This document shows positions 52,538 to 63,303 of a stretch of 64,000 bases of DNA, in pieces; position 1 is the stretch's first letter; each line of letters begins with the position of its first letter. The notes beneath the pieces were generated by a model that was not told the DNA's origin, made no database searches, and saw nothing but the letters and a program-made list of their open reading frames with translations. Made by a program: the position numbers and the translations under genes. Source of the stretch: Salinibacterium amurskyense (lineage in GTDB: Bacteria; Actinomycetota; Actinomycetes; Actinomycetales; Microbacteriaceae); the NCBI RefSeq assembly GCF_002797685.1, contig NZ_PGFH01000001.1, positions 1,674,001 through 1,738,000 on the forward strand. Direction: 5' to 3'.

Positions 52538-52993
52538 ATGCCGGTGAACCGGGCCACCAGCCGGGTACTGCTTTTCGACCGCGATAACCGCTTCTTGCTC
52601 TTCCTCACGAAGGCGCCTGACACGAGCGGCATCTCACGCTGGCTGACGCCCGGAGGCGGTGTGGATGCGGGGGAGTCTCATCACGAGGCTGCCGTACGCG
52701 AGCTTCACGAGGAGACTGGGCTCGAGCTTTCCGCACTGGGTGAGCCCGTGTGGACTCACGATTTTGTCGCCGAGTGGAATCAGGCTGACCACGACACCGG
52801 TCATGCCGTGTTCTACGAGACCAGCGTGGACGCCTTCGAGCCGTCGCAGGAGTTCTGGACCGACGACGAGCGCATCGACGTGCTCGAACACCGCTGGTGG
52901 ACACTCGACGAGCTGGCCGCGACATCCGATCGTTTCGAACCGGCCGAGCTCGTTGATCTCGTTCGGTCCCGCATAGAGAAGAGAAGCCAATGA
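52538..52993 (+). CDS. Nudix hydrolase
   Basis: 151 residues from the ATG at 52538. The Nudix box is complete: G-G-G-V-D-A-G-E-S then AAVRELHEETGLEL (about 38-60), providing the metal-binding Glu residues. Nudix enzymes hydrolyse nucleoside diphosphates linked to another moiety, such as oxidised nucleotides or ADP-ribose. The substrate cannot be read from the motif. It overlaps the UPF0303 gene by ATGA. Confidence 0.9.
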   Translation: MPVNRATSRVLLFDRDNRFLLFLTKAPDTSGISRWLTPGGGVDAGESHHEAAVRELHEETGLELSALGEPVWTHDFVAEWNQADHDTGHAVFYETSVDAFEPSQEFWTDDERIDVLEHRWWTLDELAATSDRFEPAELVDLVRSRIEKRSQ

Positions 52994-53475
52994 CTCGCCC
53001 CTTGCCGGAATACGCTGTCGCCGACCTCGAGTACTTGAACGTGCTCGATTGCGTTCGACTGACCAACGACGACGCGGTGGCGTTAGGTCTATTCGCCATT
53101 CAGGTCATCAAGGAGTGGGATCTTAATCTTGCAGTCGAGATCGCACTCGGTTCAGACGTGGTGTTCAAGGCAAAGCTCAAGGACACAAACGCCGAGAACG
53201 ATTCCTGGCTTGCGGGTAAGGCTGCTGCTGCCGTGCGGTTCGAAGAGCCGTCGCTGCTGATCAAACTCCGCCACCTTGCGGCTGGCGCGCCATTTGAGGA
53301 TCGCACCGACGTGGATCACGACCGCGTGAAAGCTCACGGTGGGTCCATACCTTTGCGAGTGGGCGGCAAGGTCGTCGGCACGCTCACAATGTCGGGGGAG
53401 CCGGATGCCCTTGATCATGAGGCAGCAGCGGAAGCGCTCGCTCGGTTTCTCGATAGTCGGCGACATCTTTTCTAG
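52990..53475 (+). CDS. UPF0303/HbpS-like protein
   Basis: 161 residues. The order NDDAVALGLFAIQVI, NLAVEIALGSDVVFKAKL, NDSWLAGKAAA (about 65) and AHGGSIPLRVGGKVVGTLTMSG near 115 matches the UPF0303 family, which shares a fold with the heme-binding HbpS/GlcG group. Some members are annotated as heme-degrading, but without proof. It is translationally coupled to the Nudix gene (ATGA overlap). Confidence 0.82.
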   Translation: MTRPLPEYAVADLEYLNVLDCVRLTNDDAVALGLFAIQVIKEWDLNLAVEIALGSDVVFKAKLKDTNAENDSWLAGKAAAAVRFEEPSLLIKLRHLAAGAPFEDRTDVDHDRVKAHGGSIPLRVGGKVVGTLTMSGEPDALDHEAAAEALARFLDSRRHLF

Positions 53476-53587: not shown

Positions 53588-54082
53588 ATGAGTTCACCAC
53601 TGATTCGCCTTGGCATCGCCGCGGCCATGATCAGCCTTGGCGCTCTCGCGGGGTGCACTTCGGCCGACCTCAACATCGTCGGAAGTGACTCGCGAGAGTT
53701 GGAAGTCGAGGACAGCACCGGCGGCAGCGATAGCCGCAGCGAGGCTCACGTTATGTCAGAAAGCCAGATTCTGGTCGAATTTGACATTCAGGATGAGAAA
53801 GTACTGGCTCAGAACTCACACCTGAGCGAATCAATCGACATGACTGCATTCACGCCGAAAACTGGCCGAGTCGCCATTTATTCAGACTGCATCGGTCCGG
53901 GACGACTCACGATTGCACTCGGCGACGGCACTGAAACGTCGCGTGAGTGCCGCACGAGCGCTGAAGATGCTGTTCACAGAGACGACCTGGTGATCGATGC
54001 GTCGGGACGCTATTCAGTTTCCATTTCCACAACCAACGAGCAGCCGTGGGCTGTGACAGTGACCGAGTTGCCGCCAGACTAG
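53588..54082 (+). CDS. Lipoprotein of unknown function
   Basis: 164 residues. A signal peptide with lipobox LGALAGC (residues 17-23) makes it an exported lipoprotein, and the GGGGAG RBS confirms the start. The mature part is acidic with a serine/aspartate-rich linker (36-52), then a predicted beta-sandwich (about 58-160) with two Cys (near 100 and 118) that may form a disulfide. I recognise no family. It is the last gene left of the dif site. Confidence 0.75.
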   Translation: MSSPLIRLGIAAAMISLGALAGCTSADLNIVGSDSRELEVEDSTGGSDSRSEAHVMSESQILVEFDIQDEKVLAQNSHLSESIDMTAFTPKTGRVAIYSDCIGPGRLTIALGDGTETSRECRTSAEDAVHRDDLVIDASGRYSVSISTTNEQPWAVTVTELPPD

Positions 54083-54138: not shown

Positions 54139-54166
54139 GTATCCGATAATGCACATTATGTCAGCT
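54139..54166 (+). other. dif: dif site (XerC/XerD recombination site, replication terminus)
   Basis: 28 bp: left (XerC) arm GTATCCGATAA, centre TGCACA, right (XerD) arm TTATGTCAGCT. The core CCGATAAT..ACATTATGTCA agrees with the actinobacterial dif consensus, and TTATGT is the conserved XerD core of most bacterial dif sites; the outer ends differ at a few bases. It lies alone in an intergenic region, and the polar word GGGGGAG changes strand around it. XerCD resolve chromosome dimers here before division. Confidence 0.88.
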
Positions 54167-54227: not shown

Positions 54228-54365
54228 ATGGACTTCGTTATCGCCGTCGTTCTTGTCGGCGTTTTTCTCTACATACTCCACGGCGTCATCCGCAGTGCCG
54301 TTCGTGATGGCATCCTGATGGCTGACGAGGAACGCGCATCCACCAACACACTCCACTCTGAATAG
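54228..54365 (+). CDS. 45-residue single-pass membrane peptide
   Basis: Short ORF with ATG at 54228 and GGAGG 9 bases upstream. Residues 2-21 are hydrophobic (VIAVVLVGVFLYILHGVI), followed by a short cytoplasmic-type tail with acidic and basic residues ending in NTLHSE. Codon use is like that of the neighbours. It has no recognisable family. It begins 62 bases after dif. Confidence 0.6.
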   Translation: MDFVIAVVLVGVFLYILHGVIRSAVRDGILMADEERASTNTLHSE

Positions 54366-55373: not shown

Positions 55374-55514
55374 TTTCGATTCTGGATGTCGCCTCAGTGT
55401 TCGCTGGCCGACTCGCACCCTCTCCCCCGGAACCAGTCATAGAACCATCCGCTAGTATCAGCGGCGCTCGCGTTCAGCAGCCGCGCAGCCTGGATCTTCT
55501 AGGGGGCTCTTGCC

Positions 55515-60921: not shown

Positions 60922-63303
<2,382 letters not shown>

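Follow-up and report, generated by a model that had tools for sequence, protein, structure and literature searches.

Most bacteria whose chromosome is circular are expected to have a dif site, which in itself belongs to a kind of element that is already known. In the E. coli mechanism, taken here as the model for Salinibacterium amurskyense, homologous recombination would fuse sister chromosomes into a dimer, XerC and XerD would bind the two arms of dif, and the septal motor FtsK would bring two dif copies together and activate XerD. A dif site has been predicted for F. alni, and in 66 of 66 single-chromosome Actinobacteria (PMC3025954). The motif known as KOPS reads GGGNAGGG in V. cholerae and enterobacteria, and a GC-skew extreme at dif is described as a correlate, not as a defining part (PMC13342612). 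The KOPS sequence varies between lineages, L. lactis being one example (PMC5357621).

Here we describe the corresponding locus of S. amurskyense (Microbacteriaceae). The window, in which positions are numbered below unless given in Mb, is the stretch of 64,000 nucleotides at positions 1,674,001 to 1,738,000 of contig NZ_PGFH01000001.1. A preliminary description, made from the sequence, had noted two arms around TGCACA in an intergenic region, had read them as the chromosome dimer resolution site with a core shared among actinobacteria, and had concluded that the replication terminus lies in the window. The forward strand does read GTATCCGATAA-TGCACA-TTATGTCAGCT at this place, in a gap bounded on the left by an ORF whose end is at 54082 and on the right by a small ORF that begins at 54228 (Table 1), and the architecture of two 11-bp arms and a 6-bp centre resembles that of known dif sites. 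The shared core is borne out by the predicted dif of F. alni: both sites are 28 bp long and have an identical 21-bp core, CCGATAATGCACATTATGTCA, and they differ in the outer bases, which are GTAT on the left and GCT on the right here against CACG and AGT in F. alni (PMC3025954). The dif of E. coli, whose sequence was found letter for letter in NC_000913.3, is likewise 28 bp long with arms around a 6-bp centre; 18 of the 28 bases are alike, the differences lying in the centre and in the outer bases of each arm. Judged by sequence, the left arm would be bound by XerC and the right arm by XerD.

Table 1. The predicted dif site and the nearest GGGGGAG copies pointing to it (positions in the window).
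Feature	Position	Strand	Basis
dif site, 28 bp (11-6-11)	54139..54166	+	Sole mismatch-free match in the genome; conservation
Presumed XerC-side arm, GTATCCGATAA	54139..54149	+	Comparison with E. coli dif and the predicted dif of F. alni
Central region TGCACA, 6-bp spacer	54150..54155	+	Inner bases variable among relatives
Presumed XerD-side arm, TTATGTCAGCT	54156..54166	+	Identical TTATGTCA in 26 of 27 congeneric genomes
Last dif-pointing GGGGGAG left of dif	53394..53400	+	All 22 left copies in the window forward
First dif-pointing GGGGGAG right of dif	55422..55428	-	6 reverse copies in the window, 1 forward exception at 63273

The site is unique in the genome. When up to 3 mismatches were allowed, GATAATNNACATTATGTCA had one match in the window, compared with a mean of 0.01 in shuffled sequences (1 of 100 shuffles with a match). 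Across the whole genome (2,776,536 bases in 4 contigs), CCGATAA-N6-TTATGTCA with at most 3 mismatches gave 27 matches, and a reversed-pattern control gave 10. Among the 27, only the site described here is free of mismatches; the others differ at 2 positions (two matches) or at 3 (24 matches), and no better dif is thus found elsewhere on the chromosome. A scan of the window with Rfam at gathering thresholds returned one tRNA and no match at dif.

The site is also conserved. All 27 genomes of the genus contain GATAA-N6-TTATGTCA with at most 1 mismatch, and 26 of them contain it without any; in the exception, G018 (87% complete), the only site found is one that G017 also has, besides its mismatch-free site. 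CGATAAT-N3-CATTATGTCA occurs within 1 mismatch in 121 of 149 genomes of the order, and the same pattern matches 19 of 149 genomes in a phylum-wide draw. With 28 of the order genomes and 130 of those drawn from the phylum lacking a match, this sequence form of dif is lineage-limited. Three families account for 16 of the 28 unmatched order genomes (f12 with 9, f15 with 4 and f8 with 3), and their dif sites may have diverged. The exact 24-bp dif stretch was found in 44 contigs of named genomes, 42 of which bear names that we take to be those of Microbacteriaceae. Two contigs with the stretch are labelled as Propionibacteriaceae and Acidobacteria MAGs, perhaps through binning errors.

Candidates for the proteins acting at dif are encoded in the genome. 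It contains two Phage_integrase proteins, both of which pass NF001399, the NCBIfam model of the Xer-type subfamily. One has its best score as XerC, at 329.2 bits and just under the equivalog cut-off of 335.15; the other scores 325.1 bits as XerD, just under the equivalog cut-off of 329.6, versus 303.4 bits as XerC. One FtsK gamma domain is present. The uniqueness and conservation of the site, the core in common with F. alni, the candidates for XerC, XerD and FtsK gamma and the motif switch described below strongly support the dimer-resolution reading, and positions 54139-54166 are almost certainly the chromosomal dif site.

A Pfam scan of nine ORFs near dif matched seven, with HbpS-like, SDR, YHYH, DUF3105, DUF305 and ABC transporter families among them. 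The HbpS-like gene (52990-53475, forward strand) has a relative in 16 of 19 other genus loci compared (3-kb loci around the match, one of which is probably not dif), some of these relatives being weak or partial. The ORF ending at 54082 looks like a lipoprotein by appearance and had no Pfam match. A 45-aa ORF on the forward strand (54228-54365) adjoins dif and has one hydrophobic stretch; it too had no Pfam match, and it was discarded as a dif-linked gene because a similar ORF was found in just 2 of the 19 loci.

The strand switch of GGGGGAG, which the preliminary description had offered as independent support for dif, is real. In the window, 22 forward and 0 reverse copies lie to the left of dif, and 1 forward and 6 reverse copies lie to the right. 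Over ∼400 kb (1.50–1.90 Mb, 2 kb of which is absent from the count), 126 of the 128 copies are oriented towards dif, and the switch is best placed in the 2-kb gap containing dif, between window positions 53394 and 55422. An order-3 model of this region predicts 20.1 copies in the pointing sense, in which 126 were observed, and 12.9 in the opposite sense, in which 2 were observed. Sampled DNA of ∼740 kb from the same genome gave a ratio (towards dif : away from dif) of 194:3, from which we left out three pieces near dnaA, where the polarity is displaced (2 forward, 16 reverse), and two pieces on contigs C2 and C3, for which the arm is unassigned (4 forward, 0 reverse).

GGGGGAG is also denser towards dif. 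In the sampled left arm there are 28.5 copies per 100 kb up to 250 kb from dif, 28.0 at 250–800 kb and 14.3 beyond 800 kb, which is an about twofold difference between near and far (p 0.005), although the rise is not steady and single 100-kb bins are noisy. Strand-biased octamers (AIMS) likewise show a bias that is stronger towards the terminus, and the available part of the source names no actinobacterial AIMS sequence (PMC5993296). Gene orientation is unsupported as a cause of the polarity: among the 28 copies in the window that point to dif, 15 follow gene sense, 11 run against it and 2 are intergenic, and the single copy pointing away lies in gene sense (by rough gene calls based on GC3).

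The same pattern is found around dif in relatives. In 20 genomes (7 of the genus, 4 of the family and 9 of the order; 10 kb on each side of dif) the copies sum to 269:1, with dif at the polarity switch, and when the genus (own genome included), family and order sets were each pooled, GGGGGAG headed the 7-mer ranking in all three. Another 20 relatives (12 of the order, 4 of the class and 4 of the phylum, two of them cut by contig ends) sum to 175:4, one being without any copy. Taken singly, 3 of the 20 genomes of this second sample had GGGGGAG as the leading 7-mer, and 9 of the 20 had it within the top four. The 40 sampled relatives are a subset of those with a dif match, namely 7 other genomes of the genus, 25 of the 120 other order genomes with a match and 8 of the 14 matches outside the order. 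As a control, one 40-kb stretch around the dif of E. coli gave 9:0 for GGGNAGGG and 1:1 for GGGGGAG. KOPS did not come first in the unbiased 7-mer ranking of this control, and ranking alone therefore does not define a KOPS; pooled data are needed. A literature search covering titles and the beginnings of abstracts returned no paper naming GGGGGAG as a KOPS or FtsK motif, which is no claim that the motif is unpublished.

GGGGGAG resembles the E. coli-type motif in several ways. Both it and GGGNAGGG are rich in G, are oriented towards dif on either arm, change strand at the site and are commoner near it. In our own alignment the two words overlay as G-GGG(G)AG, with GGGGGAG shifted one base upstream, G at the position of N and the final GG not needed. 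The E. coli word itself was rejected as the guide in S. amurskyense, where GGGNAGGG with N not G shows no polarity (22:19); the corresponding ratio in relatives is 30:12, and an E. coli-like word is possible there. The word GGGGAGGG gave 15:2 in the own genome and 31:3 in relatives.

The FtsK gamma domain also differs in sequence from one of solved structure. A text pattern found the segment G-F-A-K/R-A-G-R-L-M-D in 16 sequences (the own genome and 15 of 16 relatives, one relative being missed by the pattern). The equivalent segment of chain 2j5o, a solved structure presumably from P. aeruginosa, is G-Y-N-R-A-A-R-M-I-E, so that G-F-A-K/R-A-G-R stands against G-Y-N-R-A-A-R. The change in this segment may go along with the changed motif. 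For E. coli, the gamma peptide is quoted as RQFRIGYNR, and the gamma surface of this segment also contacts XerD (PMC5052618).

Judged by its polarity and distribution, GGGGGAG is probably the FtsK guide, or KOPS, of this lineage. On each arm the motif runs 5' to 3' in the direction of dif, and it would most likely steer FtsK to the site, as GGGNAGGG does in E. coli. By analogy with that system, we infer recombinase binding, recombination and reading of GGGGGAG by FtsK gamma. As a whole, a dif site at 54139-54166 guided by GGGGGAG is very probably the best explanation of the data.

Mutation bias between the replication strands, or strand composition, might instead yield the polarity as a by-product, with no reading by FtsK. 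Many polar words rich in G track the leading strand, and in most of the chromosome sampled the orientation of GGGGGAG agrees with the arms. Near-identical words, however, do not share its behaviour. GGGGG[CT]G is unpolar, with 88:93 in the own genome and 99:70 in relatives, and polarity was lost on most single-base changes. The most polar variants in the own genome carry C at position 7 (24:4), A at position 4 (65:17) or A at position 1 (38:10), and the same changes gave 41:7, 63:12 and 43:1, respectively, in relatives. The last of these variants, AGGGGAG, indicates that position 1 is not strictly G, and the motif may be written as R-GGGGAG with G preferred.

GC skew, too, speaks against strand composition as the cause. 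It is weak in the own genome and has no switch at dif, yet GGGGGAG switches within 2 kb. The cumulative skew over 1.50–1.76 Mb peaks near 1.58 Mb, ∼150 kb from dif, and falls across dif. The step from a dif site to the replication terminus in the preliminary description thus goes too far. Its suggested check, whether the skew extreme lies far from 54 kb, comes out against the terminus, since locally this is so; it does not test the dif claim. Because the skew is weak, it speaks neither for nor against fork convergence at dif, and it was discarded as a locator of the terminus. The site lies 1.486 Mb from the single dnaA on the same contig, in an assembly of 2.777 Mb and 4 contigs, and is roughly opposite the origin if all contigs are assumed to form one circle.

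On the origin side, the best GGGGGAG switch point was never at dnaA in seven genomes (the own genome and 6 of 14 genomes with dnaA placed). The displacement is clearest in two genomes, at 43–58 kb from dnaA. In the own genome, the switch lies 53–58 kb away (242–302 kb on contig C1, covered by four pieces), with 16 of 17 intervening copies in the wrong sense, and in G014 it lies 43–58 kb away, with 13 of 13. The corresponding values are 48–55 kb (9 of 13 copies) in G002, 50–51 kb (15 of 18) in G064 and 62–63 kb (10 of 12) in G111. Two genomes are less clear: the switch of G027, at 35 kb, is noisy, with just 26 of 39 copies fitting any single switch, and that of G140, at 45–50 kb, has 2 copies in between. 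Relative to the reading direction of dnaA, the shift falls on either side. An inversion was considered and rejected as the source of the displacement: the genes adjoining dnaA are dnaA-yidC-jag-rsmG-parA-parB, which we take to be the usual origin gene order, and an inversion containing oriC would keep the switch at oriC.

The local skew minimum lies near dnaA in G014 (1.6 kb), G111 (2.5 kb) and the own genome (8.4 kb), and 19–91 kb from it in G002, G064, G027 and G140, so that the comparison with the replication strands is clear in the first three alone. Where the skew is clear, the displaced switch argues against plain replication-strand bias, as in G014, where the motif keeps the other sense well beyond the skew minimum. 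By-product polarity is therefore improbable. The displacement is, at the same time, not predicted by a simple guide running from origin to terminus.

Still less probable is that GGGGGAG is a Chi-like recombination signal for a RecBCD- or AdnAB-type nuclease; Chi sites do show a leading-strand bias, but near-absolute polarity with a sharp switch at dif suits KOPS-type motifs better. Dif-like sites serve some mobile elements, but that the 28-bp site is such an attachment site of an integrated element, and not the chromosomal dif, is barely credible for a site with a single genome copy that is present across the order and sits at the polarity switch in 20 relatives, with no integrase or phage family among the seven Pfam-matched ORFs of the nine scanned nearby.

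For the reading of GGGGGAG as an FtsK guide, we lean slightly towards a broad form, in which the motif would serve a large part of Actinomycetota, the gamma segment G-F-A-K/R-A-G-R would have changed together with it, and the polarity would be anchored at dif and not at oriC, with the polarity of one arm running ∼40–60 kb past dnaA. What is gained is a word of seven bases with almost perfect polarity, which serves as a marker of dif throughout an order of Actinomycetota and also outside that order in the few genomes examined. GGGGGAG locates dif where GC skew fails, offers a direct test of co-evolution between motif and FtsK, and raises the question of why the polarity does not turn at oriC.
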